A program made the position numbers and the translations under genes. The notes beneath the pieces are model-generated. The model was not told the DNA's origin. It did not search any database and saw nothing but the letters and a program-made list of their open reading frames with translations. This document shows, in pieces, positions 419-43,549 of a stretch of 43,549 bases of DNA. The stretch comes from a virus. Location of the stretch: positions 1 to 43,549 of the IMG/VR virus record IMGVR_UViG_3300036845_000448; one strand, written 5' to 3'. Every line of letters begins with the position of its first letter. Within the stretch, counting starts at the first letter, position 1.

Positions 419-447
419 TTGACACGTTCGCCACTATTCCATTAGTT
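419..447 (+). promoter_or_regulatory. Probable sigma70-type promoter of the clamp-loader gene
   Basis: TTGACA at 419-424 is followed after 17 bp by a weak -10 candidate, TTAGTT (442-447). Transcription would start near 454, a few bases before the leader hairpin at 463. The -35 is consensus and the -10 is poor, so the assignment is moderate. Confidence 0.45.
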
Positions 448-462
448 TCTAAAAATCAAAGC

Positions 463-476
463 GTGGCGGATGCCAC
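463..476 (+). promoter_or_regulatory. Leader hairpin, copy 1 (GTGGCGGATGCCAC)
   Basis: The 14-nt sequence GTGGCGGATGCCAC forms a 5-bp stem around GGAT. It is followed directly by AAGAGGAGTAA, whose GAGGAG is the ribosome binding site of the gene at 493. The same 14 nt occur at 1237, 3514 and 3739. Likely roles are a 5' mRNA-stabilising stem or a translational operator. Confidence 0.7.
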
Positions 477-492
477 AAGAGGAGTAACAAAC

Positions 493-1125
493 ATGCTGCT
501 AGTTGAAAAGTACCGTCCAACCCTAATCAAAGATTTTGTCGGTATCCCCAGTGCAAAGGAAACTGCAACCGATTTAGTGGCCAGTCCATACAGCTCCGCA
601 TGGTTGTTTGTTGGCAGTCCCGGAATGGGGAAGACAACCCTAGCAATGGCCATCGCGCATGAGTTGGGAGCTGAGGTTCACCATATCCCTAGTCAATCTT
701 GTACCGTTGACACTGTAAAGCAGCTCCGCGCGAAGCTGGCATTTTGCCCGATGTTTGGCGCAAAGTGGAGTGTCGTGATTGTGGATGAGGCGGATGAAAT
801 GAGTTCGGCGGCGGAAAATGCTTGGTTGTCTATGACTGACTCCACCAACCGGCCAGAAAACACAATTATCATTTTCACTTGCAACGAAACAGAGAAACTA
901 AAGTCCCGGTTCACGTCCCGGTGTGAGCAAGTTGTCTTTTCCTCTAAGGAAAAGAGTGGAATGAACAAACCCGCATCCGATCTGCTAGCGCGCGTCTGGA
1001 ATGAAGAGACGGGCGGATTGTCCCCAGCTCCCAACTTTTCCACGATAGTAAAAGAGGCTAACAGTAACATCCGCGAAGCTCTGCAAGTGCTGCAAGGCCA
1101 TGTCAGACGCGCTAAACGCGCATAG
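493..1125 (+). CDS. AAA+ ATPase of the clamp-loader small-subunit type (RFC / T4 gp44-like)
   Basis: This 210-residue protein resembles the ATP-driven subunits that load sliding clamps onto DNA. It begins MLLVEKYRP, the typical RFC/gp44 start. It has Walker A GSPGMGKT (41-48), Walker B VVIVDEADE (94-102), a sensor-1 segment ending TCNE (about 129-132), the SRC arginine-finger motif (142-144) and a sensor-2-like SNIREAL (191-197). It is shorter than RFC or gp44 (about 320 residues), so the C-terminal collar domain is mostly missing. The start at 493 is chosen for its GAGGAG site; an upstream in-frame extension to 385 would run through the promoter. No clamp or polymerase gene is visible, so it may act with the host clamp. 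Confidence 0.85.
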   Translation: MLLVEKYRPTLIKDFVGIPSAKETATDLVASPYSSAWLFVGSPGMGKTTLAMAIAHELGAEVHHIPSQSCTVDTVKQLRAKLAFCPMFGAKWSVVIVDEADEMSSAAENAWLSMTDSTNRPENTIIIFTCNETEKLKSRFTSRCEQVVFSSKEKSGMNKPASDLLARVWNEETGGLSPAPNFSTIVKEANSNIREALQVLQGHVRRAKRA

Positions 1126-1140
1126 TCCGCGCGGGTTTCG

Positions 1141-1180
1141 CGCGCGATACGCTGGGGTCATCCTGAGCGTATGGCGCGCG
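1141..1180 (+). terminator. Long GC-rich hairpin between clamp loader and ArdC gene
   Basis: CGCGCGATACGCT (1141-1153) can pair with AGCGTAT (1166-1172) and CGCGCG (1175-1180), with a small internal bulge. It lies 15 bp after the stop of the upstream gene and just before the next promoter. There is no T-tract, so termination is only possible. The loop contains GGGTCATCC, also found in the left tandem repeats. Confidence 0.4.
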
Positions 1181-1194
1181 CATCTTGCGCGGTC

Positions 1195-1223
1195 ATGGCG
1201 TCATCATGGCGTCATGGTATAAT
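1195..1223 (+). promoter_or_regulatory. Extended -10 promoter with tandem 11-bp operator-like repeats (ArdC operon)
   Basis: ATGGCGTCATC (1195-1205) and ATGGCGTCATG (1206-1216) are tandem repeats, running straight into an extended -10, TGG-TATAAT (1215-1223). No good -35 is visible, as expected for an extended -10 promoter that needs an activator or is blocked by a repressor. The start would be near 1230, seven bases before the leader hairpin. The same arrangement recurs at 3475-3503 and, diverged, at 40128-40156. Confidence 0.7.
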
Positions 1224-1236
1224 CAACCTAACAACC

Positions 1237-1250
1237 GTGGCGGATGCCAC
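1237..1250 (+). promoter_or_regulatory. Leader hairpin, copy 2
   Basis: GTGGCGGATGCCAC is again followed by AAGAGGAGTAA and then the ATG at 1268. The 25-nt stretch from the stem to the end of the ribosome site is identical to that before the gene at 493. Confidence 0.7.
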
Positions 1251-1267
1251 AAGAGGAGTAATCAAAA

Positions 1268-2164
1268 ATGTCTGTCTATGACGCGGTCACTGATCGCATT
1301 ATCGAATCCCTAGAAAATGGCGTTATCCCGTGGCGTCGGGAGTGGCAAACTTCCGGTAAAAAGTCCGGTTTGCCATACAACCTAGTCAGCAACAAACCTT
1401 ACCGTGGCGTGAACATCCTGACTCTGTTTTGCTCCCCGTATGCTTCGCGTGGATGGTGCACGTACAAGCAAGCGCAAGCTCTTGGCTATCAGGTCCGCAA
1501 GGGCGAAAAGGCTATGCCGATTGTCTTCTGGAAGTTTCCAACTAAAGCGGAGCTGGTTAAGAATCCTGATCGTAAACCGTTCGCGAAACCCTACTACGTT
1601 TTCAATATCGAACAACTGGATGGCGTCCCGGTGGAGCTGCCATTAGAGGCGGTGGCGTTTGACCCGATAGAAGAGTGCGAACGGGTTACGGCCGATTTTA
1701 TGGCGTCGGCGTCGCATCCTGAGCTGAAGCATGGCGGGGATAGTGCTTACTTCTCGCAACGTCTGGATACTGTCCAGATGCCTCCGCGCGAAACGTTCAA
1801 GTCTGCTGGTGGATACTATGCCACTTTGTTCCATGAGTTCGCACACTCCACGGGCGTCAAGTCCCGGCTCGCGCGTCCCGAGTTCGTGGGCGGGTTCACA
1901 TTCGGAGATGAGAATTATTCCCGTGAGGAGCTGGTCGCGGAGTTCGCTTCCGCGTTTCTCTGTGCCGAAACTGGTTGCTCGAATGAGGAGAGAATCGGCA
2001 ATACTGTCGCGTACATTCAGAGCTGGCTTAAGGTCTTCAAGAATGACAAGAGCGTAGCGATAGAAGCAGCTCAGAAGGCTCAGCGCGCGTCGGACTTTAT
2101 CCTGTGTCGCACCTTCGCTAGTGAGTCCGCCGGCGAGACTGAAGAGACGGAGGTGGCCGCGTGA
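1268..2164 (+). CDS. ardC: ArdC-like antirestriction protein with zincin metallopeptidase domain
   Basis: This 298-residue protein has the two-part ArdC layout. The N-terminal ssDNA-binding domain (about 1-120) has the typical features IIESLENGVIPWRREW and NKPYRGVNIL. A zinc metallopeptidase domain follows, with HEFAH at 189-193 and a conserved glutamate in SREELVAEF (about 218-226). ArdC proteins of conjugative plasmids protect incoming DNA from restriction. Here it would act early after entry, which fits its position beside the left end. The start has a GAGGAG site and follows the regulated promoter. The stop overlaps the next start (GTGA). The family is clear; protection of this phage is inferred. 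Confidence 0.9.
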   Translation: MSVYDAVTDRIIESLENGVIPWRREWQTSGKKSGLPYNLVSNKPYRGVNILTLFCSPYASRGWCTYKQAQALGYQVRKGEKAMPIVFWKFPTKAELVKNPDRKPFAKPYYVFNIEQLDGVPVELPLEAVAFDPIEECERVTADFMASASHPELKHGGDSAYFSQRLDTVQMPPRETFKSAGGYYATLFHEFAHSTGVKSRLARPEFVGGFTFGDENYSREELVAEFASAFLCAETGCSNEERIGNTVAYIQSWLKVFKNDKSVAIEAAQKAQRASDFILCRTFASESAGETEETEVAA

Positions 2165-2844
2165 GGGCGGCTCCTCTGTACCGTCCGGCGAACGTCGGTC
2201 TATTCGGGGAAACCCGAATAGACTACGCGGCGGCGGCTGACTCTTACAGTGCGGACGTAATCGCCATGAGTGCAACCGTTCGGCGTCCGTTCGAGCTGGA
2301 CGGCGCGCGCTGGGTCTGCGTCGGTACTGGCGGGAACTTCACCACGTACACGTCAATCCGAATCTACAAACTAACCCCTGAGCGGGAGTTCGATGGCGTG
2401 GCGCGGTCTTATACGGGGAAGTGTCTGATTGACGGCGGCGAGTTCGCGCGGAATGACCCGAACGGGTTTTACCACGGGATGACGGTCCAGCATGGCGGTA
2501 AATGGTACGCGCTGACTGGTCCAGAGTTCGAGCTGCTGGCGGAACCAACTGAGGTACGCGGTGGGCTCTATCAGGATGAGGATGAGGAGCTGGCCACGGT
2601 CTCGGATGAGGACTTCGAGCTGGATTACTCGGATGAGGACGTAGAAGAGTACGCGGGGGACCAACTAACTTTTAGCCAGGTTGACGGCGCGGCCAGCTCC
2701 CAAGCGTTTGCAGAGTGGGAAGCAAAATACTATCCCGAACCTGAATTTAAATGTCCTGACTGCTGGGCTGAAAGTGTAGACGGTTCGGTTTGCGCTGGCT
2801 GTCTCGCGCGTCGGTCCGATGGTAGTCAGCTTTCGATGTTCTAA
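2161..2844 (+). CDS. Zinc-ribbon protein with acidic region and C-terminal QLSMF peptide
   Basis: A 227-residue protein of no family I recognise, translated from GTG at 2161, which overlaps the ArdC stop. Residues about 55-135 form a compact mixed domain. A strongly acidic stretch follows (about 136-170, rich in D and E). Near the C-terminus is a Cys4 zinc ribbon (CPDC ... CAGC). The final five residues are QLSMF, matching the bacterial beta-clamp-binding consensus QL[S/D]LF closely. Together with the clamp-loader-like protein two genes upstream, this suggests contact with a sliding clamp. That link is inferred from the peptide only; the acidic region could also make it a DNA mimic. Confidence 0.75.
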   Translation: MRAAPLYRPANVGLFGETRIDYAAAADSYSADVIAMSATVRRPFELDGARWVCVGTGGNFTTYTSIRIYKLTPEREFDGVARSYTGKCLIDGGEFARNDPNGFYHGMTVQHGGKWYALTGPEFELLAEPTEVRGGLYQDEDEELATVSDEDFELDYSDEDVEEYAGDQLTFSQVDGAASSQAFAEWEAKYYPEPEFKCPDCWAESVDGSVCAGCLARRSDGSQLSMF

Positions 2845-2888
2845 ACTCGCGCGGATGACGCGCCAAACCGTATCTAAAAGGGGACTAG

Positions 2889-3074
2889 ATGAAGCTCTTA
2901 ATTGAAATTGATTTAGGCAATGATGCCATTCAACGGTACAGCCAAGCGCGTGCGCTGCTGCGCGATGCTGTTGGTCCAGCTCGTCGCGATGCCTCCCCGA
3001 AAGTTGGGGATGGTTCAACTCTGAACGATAAGAACGGGGTCCGCGTGGGCTCGTGGCGGGTGGTGGCCGAATGA
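2889..3074 (+). CDS. Small conserved phage-type protein
   Basis: A 61-residue protein starting at an ATG with a strong AAAAGGGGA site at 2877-2884. The beginning, MKLLIEIDLGNDAI, and the end, LNDKNGVRVGSWRV, resemble a class of small actinophage and plasmid proteins with a closing D-x-N-G-x-x-V-G-x-W segment, whose function is unknown. It is separated by 44 bp from the upstream gene and its stop overlaps the start of the next gene (ATGA at 3071), so the two are probably translationally coupled. Confidence 0.7.
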   Translation: MKLLIEIDLGNDAIQRYSQARALLRDAVGPARRDASPKVGDGSTLNDKNGVRVGSWRVVAE

Positions 3075-3466
3075 ATCAGCCCAACTTGTTTTGTATCTCG
3101 GATGAGGAGCTGGCGGCGGATCGCGCTGCGTTGTCTCCTGATGATCGCGCGGCGGTGGATGCGCTCCCCAGCTCGTTTGAGGACTCCCCAGCTCCTCCGG
3201 CTCCTCCTCATCTGTACGATTTGGCGGCTCCGGCTCCCAAGCATGACGCGCGGCTGGATGCCTATACGGGTCCATTTCCGCGCAAGCGTCATTACCATCG
3301 GTGTCCCCAGTGTCGGGCGAAGGGTAGCGGCGGCGTCCACTGCTACAAGTCCCGGTGTATGGCTCCGGTCCTAATGTCTACTCCCTGCCAGTGGTGCCGG
3401 ACTTCCGTGGCTCCTGGGCGAACGACTGATGCGGGGCGGTGGCGCGCGGCTGCATACGGGGACTAA
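3071..3466 (+). CDS. Small zinc-finger protein with Pro/Ala-rich N-terminal half
   Basis: 131 residues from an ATG overlapping the previous stop; an upstream in-frame GTG at 3053 is less likely. The N-terminal half is rich in Ala, Pro and Asp and looks disordered. The C-terminal half carries several Cys pairs (HRCPQC, HCYKSRC, CQWC), consistent with a two-zinc fold. The first residues contain QPNLF, which loosely fits a clamp-binding QxxLF pattern, but this is weak. No family is recognised. The next promoter begins immediately after the stop. Confidence 0.6.
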   Translation: MNQPNLFCISDEELAADRAALSPDDRAAVDALPSSFEDSPAPPAPPHLYDLAAPAPKHDARLDAYTGPFPRKRHYHRCPQCRAKGSGGVHCYKSRCMAPVLMSTPCQWCRTSVAPGRTTDAGRWRAAAYGD

Positions 3467-3474
3467 ATACTTTT

Positions 3475-3503
3475 ATGGCGTCATCATGGCGTCATGCTAC
3501 AAT
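3475..3503 (+). promoter_or_regulatory. Second copy of the extended -10 promoter with tandem 11-bp repeats
   Basis: ATGGCGTCATC (3475-3485) and ATGGCGTCATG (3486-3496) precede TGC-TACAAT (3495-3503). This matches the promoter at 1195-1223 at almost every position except one T-to-C change in the -10 and one base before it. The start would be near 3510. Confidence 0.7.
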
Positions 3504-3513
3504 CAATTTCAAC

Positions 3514-3527
3514 GTGGCGGATGCCAC
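3514..3527 (+). promoter_or_regulatory. Leader hairpin, copy 3
   Basis: GTGGCGGATGCCAC lies at the predicted 5' end of the transcript, followed by AAGCGAAGGAGAAAA and the ATG at 3544. The stem is the same as in copies 1 and 2, but the ribosome site differs (GAAGGAG). Confidence 0.7.
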
Positions 3528-3543
3528 AAGCGAAGGAGAAAAA

Positions 3544-3693
3544 ATGGACCAACTTATCAACCTAGTCGATGCAATCACCATCATCAAAACCGCGCGGATC
3601 GCTGTATCCGGTGCTTCGGCTGTTGTCTGGAACAAAGTGAATAACGCGGCTGAATACCTAGATAAACAGGTGGCCGAACTACTCGCGGAATAG
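3544..3693 (+). CDS. Small protein of 49 residues, unknown function
   Basis: The frame begins at an ATG with a good GAAGGAG site directly after promoter and leader hairpin, which supports it as a real gene despite its size. The product is 49 residues, mildly hydrophobic in the middle (about 8-30: VDAITIIKTARIAVSGASAV) and ends in an amphipathic stretch. It might associate with a membrane or form a small helical bundle; I do not recognise it. A terminator-like hairpin follows 10 bp later, so it forms a single-gene unit. As the only product of a dedicated regulated promoter it is a good candidate for a regulator or inhibitor, but that is inference. Confidence 0.65.
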   Translation: MDQLINLVDAITIIKTARIAVSGASAVVWNKVNNAAEYLDKQVAELLAE

Positions 3694-3703
3694 TAGCGAA
3701 TGG

Positions 3704-3734
3704 CGCGCGGATCGTCTCCGCGCGTCTCTTCTTT
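3704..3734 (+). terminator. Rho-independent-like terminator after the 49-residue gene
   Basis: CGCGCGGA (3704-3711) pairs with TCCGCGCG (3717-3724) around the loop TCGTC. TCTCTTCTTT follows, an interrupted T-tract. Confidence 0.6.
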
Positions 3735-3738
3735 AACC

Positions 3739-3752
3739 GTGGCGGATGCCAC
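3739..3752 (+). promoter_or_regulatory. Leader hairpin, copy 4
   Basis: GTGGCGGATGCCAC again, here 45 nt before the next start and without the linked ribosome site. No clear promoter separates it from the terminator just upstream. It may lie at the 5' end of a transcript reading through, or be a relic of a duplicated leader. Confidence 0.6.
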
Positions 3753-3797
3753 AAGTAACCGCGCGGGTCCGGCGCGGAATCCGGCCAGAAGGTATCA

Positions 3798-4178: not shown

Positions 4179-4552
4179 TGACGCGTCAAACAATGATTCT
4201 CGAATCGCAACGTGCGGAGATGATCGCCAACTGGCGGCGTGGCTGTGAACTGGCTTCAGGTGAGCGGGACGGGGAGCATGACCCTAAGCCAGTCCTGAAG
4301 CTGTTCAACCCTTGCGGGGCTGCTACGTGGCTTCTGACGGAGCTGGTGGAGCATGAGGACGGCGTAGCCTTCGGCCTCTGTGATCTGGGACAGGGGACTC
4401 CTGAGCTGGGTTATGTTTCCCTTGAGGAGCTGGAAAGCGTCTCCCTCCCGTATGGCCTCTACATCGAGCGGGATATTCACTTCACTGCAAAAAAACCACT
4501 CTCAGGGTACGCGGCTGAGGCGCGGCGTCTGGGAAGAATTGAGGTCTGTTAA
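4178..4552 (+). CDS. DUF2958 family protein
   Basis: This 124-residue protein has the hallmark run of the DUF2958 family: KLFNPCGAATWLLTEL (about 41-56), then FGLCDLGQGTPELGYVSLEE and LYIERDIHF near the end. DUF2958 proteins are common on plasmids and integrative elements, often near ArdC-type antirestriction genes; their function is unknown. The start shares one base with the upstream stop (TAATG). Its presence with ArdC and DUF3846 supports a plasmid-like lifestyle for part of this genome. Family assignment is from memory of the conserved motifs. Confidence 0.85.
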   Translation: MTRQTMILESQRAEMIANWRRGCELASGERDGEHDPKPVLKLFNPCGAATWLLTELVEHEDGVAFGLCDLGQGTPELGYVSLEELESVSLPYGLYIERDIHFTAKKPLSGYAAEARRLGRIEVC

Positions 4553-4878
4553 TGGCTATCACTCATCGGCGCGCGATGGAGCTGTTGGTCCAAGCGCAAG
4601 TGTTTTTCCCTGCCATCGTCCCTTACTTGGGCGGTGGCGGGTTTCATATCTTCTCCGCGATGCGGGTTATAGGCTCCGGCTCCACGATAGACGCGGCTCT
4701 GGCGGATGCCAGGGCACGCGAAAATATCCCGTCCCTGCCTCCGCGTCCCCCCTTCCGCGCTCATGGCGTCGAAGTGGAGATGCGCGGCGAAGTCGTGGCC
4801 ACGGCCAAGTCCCGAACCTTCGCGGATCGGATCGCGAACGCGCTGAACCTCTACAACCCGAACGAAAGGGGAATCTGA
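4552..4878 (+). CDS. Conserved phage-type hypothetical protein
   Basis: 108 residues, start overlapping the DUF2958 stop by one base (TAATG). The N-terminal part includes a hydrophobic patch with a run of four Gly (about 27-30). The C-terminal part, VEVEMRGEVVATAKSRTF then ADRIANALNLYNP, resembles a short domain found in many phage proteins, where a two-strand hairpin is followed by a helix ending ANALN. No enzymatic motif is visible. It lies within the compact 3798-5067 gene run. Confidence 0.7.
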   Translation: MAITHRRAMELLVQAQVFFPAIVPYLGGGGFHIFSAMRVIGSGSTIDAALADARARENIPSLPPRPPFRAHGVEVEMRGEVVATAKSRTFADRIANALNLYNPNERGI

Positions 4879-39716: not shown

Positions 39717-40140
39717 TGGTCTCCAATCGGGTTATGAGGTATTCAGTTCGCGGGTTGTCGCGTTGGTCCTTGTGGACGATACAGTTGCTCAGTCCGCCGT
39801 CTACGGCGGCGTCGCTGTGTATCACTCCACAGTTTGTCAGCGCGTCCAAACCACATTTCCAGAAATTATCGAAGTCGCCACGCTGACGCGGACCCAGGTA
39901 TACATCCATCTTGACGGCATAGCGCGCGGCTTTTCGTTCCTTGTCGGTCTCCGGTGCCACGGACAGGCCTGCGGCGAAGATTGCCACGGCATCGTAGTAG
40001 GCTTTGGCCGCTTTCGTCACCTTGAAACCCATGTGGCTGTACCCGTCGCGCCCGGTATAGCGGCATGGGCGTTTGTAGTGATTCCCCGTGACCGGAATCA
40101 GGTAGGGTACGGTAAAGCAAATTTCTGATGGCGTCATCAT
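39709..40140 (-). CDS. rusA: RusA-like Holliday-junction resolvase
   Basis: 143 residues. The RusA fold is visible: FTVPYLIPVTGNHYKRPCRY at the start, then YAVKMDVYLGPRQRGDFDNF (RusA: R-R-D-x-D-N) and CGLDALTNCGVIHSDAAVDG. The Asp residues in GDFDNF and HSDAAVD are the expected metal ligands. RusA resolves branched DNA during replication and recombination, a natural partner for the RecF-like ATPase and, if the ends are hairpins or inverted repeats, for processing them. Start at 40140; a TATCAT -10 lies six bases upstream, suggesting a leaderless transcript. Confidence 0.85.
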   Translation of the reverse strand: MMTPSEICFTVPYLIPVTGNHYKRPCRYTGRDGYSHMGFKVTKAAKAYYDAVAIFAAGLSVAPETDKERKAARYAVKMDVYLGPRQRGDFDNFWKCGLDALTNCGVIHSDAAVDGGLSNCIVHKDQRDNPRTEYLITRLETNG

Positions 40141-40156
40141 GGAGCCATGATACGCT
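40128..40156. promoter_or_regulatory. Divergent promoter and operator between RusA and ribbon-helix-helix genes
   Basis: ATGGCGTCATC (40128-40138) and ATGGAGCCATG (40139-40149) are the diverged version of the tandem repeats at 1195 and 3475, followed by an extended -10, TGA-TACGCT (40148-40156), for the plus strand. On the minus strand TATCAT (40152-40147) can serve as -10. The palindrome ATCATGG-AG-CCATGAT (40136-40151) is a strong operator candidate. Both ATGs lie 6-7 bases after their -10. Confidence 0.65.
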
Positions 40157-40163
40157 CTTGTTC

Positions 40164-40403
40164 ATGGCAAAGAAAAAAATTGTTAGTAGGGCATCCAGTC
40201 CTCGTCCTGATCGGCAAAGTAAGAAGAGGACAGGCTATGTGAGTCAGAGTGTCCGGCTCTCCGTGGCGGACAACAAAATCCTCCGCGAAGCGGCGGCGTT
40301 AGATGGTATGTCAATCAACTTCTGGGCATCGCGCGCGCTCCTCGTGGCGGCGAACAACCGGATTAACAAACAAAAGCAGAAAGAGAGCGTAACCCTTGGC
40401 TAA
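40164..40403 (+). CDS. Ribbon-helix-helix regulator (Arc/DUF1778-like)
   Basis: 79 residues from ATG 40164; the frame is open to 40128 but that would read through the promoter. A basic N-terminal arm (MAKKKIVSRASSPRPDRQSK) precedes a ribbon-helix-helix domain: SQSVRLSVADNKILREAAAL and DGMSINFWASRALLVAANN (about 26-66). The gene lies directly downstream of an operator that also occurs at the 1195 and 3475 promoters. Inference: an autoregulated repressor controlling ArdC and the 49-residue gene as well as RusA. Confidence 0.75.
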   Translation: MAKKKIVSRASSPRPDRQSKKRTGYVSQSVRLSVADNKILREAAALDGMSINFWASRALLVAANNRINKQKQKESVTLG

Positions 40404-43404: not shown

Positions 43405-43549
43405 TGGGAAAATGCTAGTATCAAAAACGCAAACAAAAATAATGTAAATAATTTATTTCTGAGACTAGAGGATGCGGCGCCGCCATACGTCGAATAAATA
43501 AATTATTTACATTATTTTTGTTTGGGTTTTTGATACTAGCATTTTACCA
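43405..43549. repeat. Right-terminal imperfect palindrome (possible hairpin telomere)
   Basis: Positions 43405-43458 and 43496-43549 are 54-bp inverted arms with only two mismatches. The 37-bp centre is asymmetric except for the core GCGGCGCCGC (43474-43483). The arms are AT-rich (CAAAAATAATGTAAATAATT). The palindrome ends at the last base of the window. Because the arms are not identical, it is not simply an artefact of reading back along one strand. The left palindrome has an unrelated sequence. The 99 bp between the HNH stop and the palindrome hold no gene. Confidence 0.9.

Follow-up and report, generated by a model that had tools for sequence, protein, structure and literature searches.

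Introduction

In leaders of the ompA type and in the leader of T7 gene 10, a small stable hairpin lies near the 5′ end and is followed by a single-stranded Shine–Dalgarno (SD) region. Phage translational operators (MS2 coat, T4 RegA/gp43, the T4 gene 32 pseudoknot) place an RNA structure beside the ribosome site, usually at one or few sites per protein and with defined loop or pseudoknot contacts, and the boxB/nut elements of lambdoid phages are phage-specific short hairpins in early transcripts. In cluster K mycobacteriophages, the start-associated sequence (SAS) is a 13-bp non-palindromic repeat that contains the SD and lies 3–7 nt from the start codon; the evidence for RNA pairing between the arms of the ESAS was judged slight in that work (PMC3203893). 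Here, we analyse a 14-nt hairpin, GTGGCGGATGCCAC (GTGGC[GGAT]GCCAC), which is repeated before early genes of the viral record IMGVR_UViG_3300036845_000448, whose complete 43,549 nucleotides are called the window below. As judged by comparison with related phages, the hairpin is a real signal in early leaders, with a pairing that is kept across letter changes. We propose, with a probability of about 0.6, that it belongs to a cis-acting RNA module (hairpin, short A/C-rich linker, SD, start codon) that marks early genes and would be linked to translation initiation.

Results

An exact hairpin repeat in early leaders of the window

Four identical hairpins had been reported by a first-pass annotation made from the letters alone, and they are borne out: exact copies of the 14-mer start at 463, 1237, 3514 and 3739, all on the + strand and within the first 4 kb, and a search of the whole record found no further exact copy outside these sites. 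The block common to all four is even longer (18 nt, CGTGGCGGATGCCACAAG). From base composition, 0.0006 exact copies are expected, and the count of five matches at up to two mismatches was reached by no shuffle; a two-mismatch match at 4699, inside an open reading frame (ORF; Ala-Asp-Ala codons), was taken as chance. The genes behind the copies encode an AAA/clamp-loader-like ATPase, an ArdC antirestriction protein, a 49-aa protein and a 126-aa protein. The late genes, which include an SU10-type portal, lie on the opposite strand.

Copies 1, 2 and 3 end 16, 17 and 16 nt before their ATG, with a good SD between, and -10-like hexamers (consensus call) are located 14, 13 and 10 nt upstream of them. 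The earlier placement of three copies at the 5′ end and 17 nt before the ATG is thus close for the spacing, but each hairpin lies a few nucleotides from the predicted 5′ end and not exactly at it. Copies 1 and 2 are indeed joined to the same ribosome site, since they have AAGAGGAGTAA in common. Copy 4 stands 45 nt before its ATG (3798), and a second structured element followed by an SD lies between; a consensus scan revealed no recognisable promoter for this copy, and no SD is found directly behind it. Directly before copy 4 (~3699–3735), a terminator-like hairpin, CGCGCGGATCGTCTCCGCGCG, is followed by TCTCTTCTTT.

Hairpins of different sequence occupy the leaders of related phages

Relatives were sought via the neighbouring AAA protein, independently of the hairpin motif. 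The window protein as sole query recovered no more than two distant relatives, and a three-sequence alignment gave 47 phage contigs; two of the three aligned sequences (L027 and L162) had originally been found through the hairpin, the other contigs not. About 24 related phage contigs were fetched for hairpin comparison. Among the other routes, an exact 14-mer scan of IMG/VR returned mostly single chance matches, with several copies only in L027; a search for hairpin, SD and start together recovered L027 and L162; a nucleotide search of named phages gave no match; and most relatives found via the portal were fragments that lacked the early end. L027 is collinear with the window at ~70% DNA identity and holds five hairpin copies, one of which (GTGGC..GCCAT) keeps a G-U pair. 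Another L027 copy, at 1217, is contained in the last part of the ORF before it (1037–1258), and the C-terminus of that ORF (VADATRKEDSKVA) thus derives from a leader copy.

In most close relatives, the AAA gene is preceded by a short hairpin that stands just before the SD, with differing letters: GCGGC[GGAT]GCCGC, GTGGC[GCTG]GCCAC, GCGGG[TTCG]CCCGC, GGGGC[AAT]GCCCC, TGGGC[GAT]GCCCA, GAGGG[TTCG]CCCTC, ATGGT[TTCG]ACCAT and others. A hairpin of the set strength is present in 17 of 24 AAA leaders and 12 of 14 ArdC leaders (2.6 and 1.3 expected from dinucleotide shuffles), compared with 6 of 18 for an internal gene used as control (2.8 expected). Distant AAA homologues (35–44% identity) also scored above shuffles; their hairpins are unrelated and unaligned, and they were not counted. 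In 19 whole contigs, a hairpin is in place, i.e., ends 14–26 nt from the start, before 32 of 63 early genes versus 37 of 497 other genes, and in an Acidobacteriota contig before 2 of 24, these counts being approximate because starts were chosen by rule. The own stem of each genome is found almost exclusively in its first 4 kb. In a set of 42 leaders, the distance from the hairpin end averages 6.3 nt (standard deviation 2.1) to the SD and 18.9 nt (standard deviation 2.7; range 12–25 nt) to the start, and the mean predicted pairing probability is 0.84.

A search of the whole window against Rfam yielded no match at gathering score and only a chance-level SNORD50 match (E 4.1). An intrinsic terminator was rejected, as A/C-rich linkers and an SD follow the stem directly instead of a U-run, and so was RNase III processing, for which 5-bp stems are too short.

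Stem pairing is kept and stem letters are shared within a phage

Between phages, double changes occur at three of the five stem pairs. In 14 distinct cores, 100% of the cells are paired, a value inflated by the partial picking of cores for pairing, from which the test on orthologous leaders is free; 14 cells carry double changes compared with 2.9 in shuffles, and slid versions of the cores have far lower covariation scores. A check for covariation across relatives had been proposed with the initial suggestion of a selected hairpin in early mRNA leaders, which these double changes support.

Within genomes, identity reaches 97% for the stem, 86% for the loop, 42% for the upstream 10 nt and 69% for the downstream 10 nt, and the corresponding values between genomes are 72%, 46%, 32% and 41%. 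None of 2000 permutations of the genome labels attained the within-genome stem value. In L191/L192, L193 and L196, the loops have diverged and the stem is the same or nearly so, which indicates that recent copying is insufficient to explain stem identity. Of the two causes first offered for the invariance, selection is supported and recent spread alone is not. The stem letters may be read by something, or at least behave as if they were. A repeated cassette devoid of its own function, such as a mobile module carrying a ribosome-binding site or a recombination hot spot, would explain why linker and SD are also shared within genomes (the 69% above); yet the similarity begins, on its left side, with the hairpin itself, and orthologous sites in many phages bear unrelated stems, which makes this explanation very unlikely.

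The same figures bear on a translational operator, a narrower form of our proposal in which an RNA-binding factor, from the phage or its host, turns all early genes of the set off or on together, and in which each phage has its own hairpin because factor and site evolve jointly. The contrast in stem identity (0.97 versus 0.72), the retention of the stem beside diverged loops in L191, L192 and L196, which copying alone would not produce, and a hairpin site that abuts the SD all speak for it. However, loops are the usual recognition surface and they vary within some genomes (GCTG, GGAT and TGAT in L191), and we regard this narrower form as a tentative possibility.

A palindrome of the form GTGGC-N4-GCCAC could also be a DNA operator, bound by a dimeric repressor at the transcribed start of early promoters. 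Its dyad symmetry, a stem conservation that exceeds loop conservation, and the location of window copies 10–14 nt downstream of -10 hexamers would all fit. However, the spacing of the half-sites is not fixed within L195 (stems of 6 to 9 bp, loops of 3 to 5 nt), L215 (loops of 6 and 7), L196 or L211 (one odd-spaced copy each, at 2569 in L196), and a dimeric DNA-binding protein is not expected to accept such variation within one genome. Besides, one relative has a G-U pair (L194, 2366), and the promoters at 1195, 3475 and 40128 already contain a separate repeated block. Together with the promoter data below, these observations render a DNA operator quite unlikely.

Position relative to promoters and ribosome sites

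Among 55 hairpin copies, 27 have a well-scoring -10-like hexamer 8–22 nt upstream, 3 have a weak one and 25 have none, and several of these 25, called promoter-less below as no promoter was recognisable, come directly behind an upstream stop codon; promoters were called by consensus only and some were possibly missed. No listed copy covers a predicted -10, which together with the 25 promoter-less copies is a further argument against an operator in DNA. The repeated promoter block, ATGGCGTCATCATG (1195–1208, 3475–3488 and 40128–40141), is a better candidate for that role than the hairpin. Its third copy precedes a gene for a 79-aa protein (40164–40403) that is ribbon-helix-helix-like (weak HicB match, E 0.005) and has relatives in five genomes; the protein may be an early repressor under its own control, with the block as its operator.

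An ompA-like stem that shields early mRNA from 5′-end-dependent decay agrees with the 27 copies that lie close to a predicted 5′ end, whereas the 25 promoter-less ones, including those that directly follow a stop codon, and a predicted unpaired 5′ tail that is often longer than 5 nt do not suit it. All cases are covered by a role at the ribosome site, but not by one at the 5′ end alone. The two functions initially suggested, namely a stabilising stem and a translational operator, both keep some probability, but a purely 5′-end stem conflicts with the promoter-less copies and is unlikely.

A boxB/nut-like antitermination site with an N-like protein as reader would share the distribution of short phage-specific hairpins in early leaders or between early genes that is typical of lambdoid boxB. 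The loops of 3–4 nt do not form a pentaloop, the upstream flank is not conserved even within genomes (identity 0.42), so that there is no boxA-like element, and nut sites do not need a tight SD spacing, which together make antitermination highly improbable. Finally, the GGA exposed in the GGAT loop of the window, which its closest relatives also carry, had led to the idea of a CsrA/Rsm target. This idea is hardly tenable, as most loops of the relatives have no GGA (TTCG, AAT, GAT, ACC, CCA, GGTT, AATT, etc.) and CsrA is absent from three of four Acidobacteriota genomes holding relatives and present in one, although the host of the window itself may differ.

Second leader element and other features of the window

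The element behind copy 4 follows the pattern CGCG-(GG..CYGG)-CGCG-nnAT-CCRG.CC before an SD, and was found at nine further sites in five relatives (L027 2024; L190 2645, 2905 and 3939; L196 2939 and 3399; L209 1887; L215 1683 and 2862). Double changes are present at two pairs of helix 2, with a covariation score matched by 12 of 500 shuffles (8 distinct rows), and the pairing in the window is less complete than in relatives. These data are no more than suggestive of an H-type pseudoknot, for which the element is a candidate. The features of the region are listed in Table 1.

Table 1. Leader elements, predicted promoters and genes in the early region of the window
Feature	Position	Strand	Basis
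Predicted promoter: TTGACA 419–424, 18-nt spacer, TAGTTT 443–448	419..448	+	consensus only
Leader hairpin copy 1, GTGGC[GGAT]GCCAC, before AAA clamp-loader-like gene	463..476	+	
Shine–Dalgarno AGGAG, gene starting 493	480..484	+	sequence
AAA/clamp-loader-like ATPase gene	493..1125	+	PF00004, PF13177
Predicted promoter with repeated GGCGTCAT block, TATAAT 1218–1223	1195..1223	+	consensus
Leader hairpin copy 2	1237..1250	+	
Shine–Dalgarno AGGAG, gene starting 1268	1254..1258	+	sequence
ArdC-type antirestriction gene	1268..2164	+	PF08401, PF18818
Predicted promoter, same block as 1195, TACAAT 3498–3503	3475..3503	+	consensus
Leader hairpin copy 3	3514..3527	+	
Shine–Dalgarno AAGGAG, 49-aa gene starting 3544	3533..3538	+	sequence
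Leader hairpin copy 4, intercistronic, without recognisable promoter	3739..3752	+	
Second leader element, candidate H-type pseudoknot	3760..3786	+	CGCG 3760–3763 with CGCG 3773–3776; loop CCGG with CCGG of 3781–3786
Shine–Dalgarno GAAGG, gene starting 3798	3788..3792	+	sequence

The lineage is one of soil podovirus-like phages. Among bacterial genomes, usefully similar relatives of the AAA gene occur almost exclusively in metagenome-assembled genomes of Acidobacteriota, and Tunturiibacter phage Tunturi_3 is the one named phage with a relative of the portal; on these grounds, the lineage probably infects Acidobacteriota. Hairpins, stem-loops and promoters go unmentioned in the paper on the Tunturi viruses (PMC11924767).

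Left of the first gene (182–363), the window contains about nine head-to-tail repeats of 22–24 bp (CGCTGGCCGTTCGCGGGTCATC), and tandem repeats also occupy the matching site in L027 and L162, each with a different unit of its own. Both window ends (1–100 and ~43405–43549) carry long palindromes, the left one with perfect arms of 48 nt and a 4-nt loop; the relatives G006, G007 and G008 have similar end palindromes, and L027 begins near a palindrome centre. These ends look like hairpin telomeres, and no telomere resolvase of family PF16684 was found in the window. An early protein encoded at 4552–4875 is conserved in 19 contigs, with a variable N-terminus and a strongly conserved C-terminal motif (A.A.S.TMA.RIANALN.Y.PNERG).

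Discussion

The near-fixed spacing to the SD, the restriction to early leaders, the kept pairing and the identity of stems within a phage together lead us to favour an RNA hairpin module linked to translation initiation. In the nascent leader, the hairpin would fold first and then border the 30S footprint on its upstream side, where it would keep its C-rich arm off the SD and block interfering upstream structure. Early translation could thereby be raised or set, and a hairpin close to the 5′ end may slow decay in addition. With less certainty, the identity of stems within a phage suggests that the hairpins form one regulon that is read by a phage-specific factor, either a protein or an RNA. 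A putative co-evolving factor that reads the stem would be the best account of this identity. A conserved HRR protein was examined as a possible reader, and nothing indicated RNA binding.

Several observations weigh against the module. Two of 25 close relatives (L199 and L208) have no such hairpin before the AAA gene, and the folding excess of single leaders is modest (mean z of -0.76 and -1.38). The mean predicted accessibility of the SD is only 0.48, and an SD kept free by the hairpin is consequently not demonstrated; the hairpin of copy 1 also competes with another fold (P 0.14). Besides, the pattern of differing loops with the same stems in three relatives would be expected from a DNA palindrome as well.

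A more speculative and rather doubtful extension is that each phage uses a private RNA hairpin code, in which one stem per phage is placed on its early ribosome sites, a co-evolving phage factor reads that stem, and related phages in one cell avoid cross-regulation. If true, such a code would be the RNA-level counterpart of repressor immunity. Start-associated repeats have been on record in phages since 2011, with no mechanism assigned to them. The present lineage is a clearer example, in which a short element combines a pairing backed by covariation with a position fixed relative to the ribosome site and with a stem specific to each phage, which makes swap experiments straightforward. The lineage also provides a set of regulatory parts for phages that infect Acidobacteriota, which are abundant in soil and of whose phages very few have been studied.

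With regard to known systems, the module differs from the stems of the ompA and T7 gene 10 leaders in that one private sequence is repeated at several genes, also where no promoter is recognisable. In contrast to the MS2 and T4 operators, there are 2–6 sites per genome and the loops are free to vary, and unlike lambdoid boxB/nut, the hairpins are tied to the SD and come without a pentaloop or a conserved boxA-like flank. The SAS/ESAS repeats of cluster K are the nearest described case, of which the present hairpins are not a member. Both are short repeats in one orientation before the starts of non-structural genes (PMC3203893), a confinement seen here in own stems that hardly occur beyond the first 4 kb, and the ESAS consensus differs between subclusters (PMC3203893), as the stems differ between our phages. 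However, SAS contains the SD, whereas the hairpins described here precede it and end 12–25 nt before the start, and their pairing, in contrast to that of ESAS, is backed by double changes.

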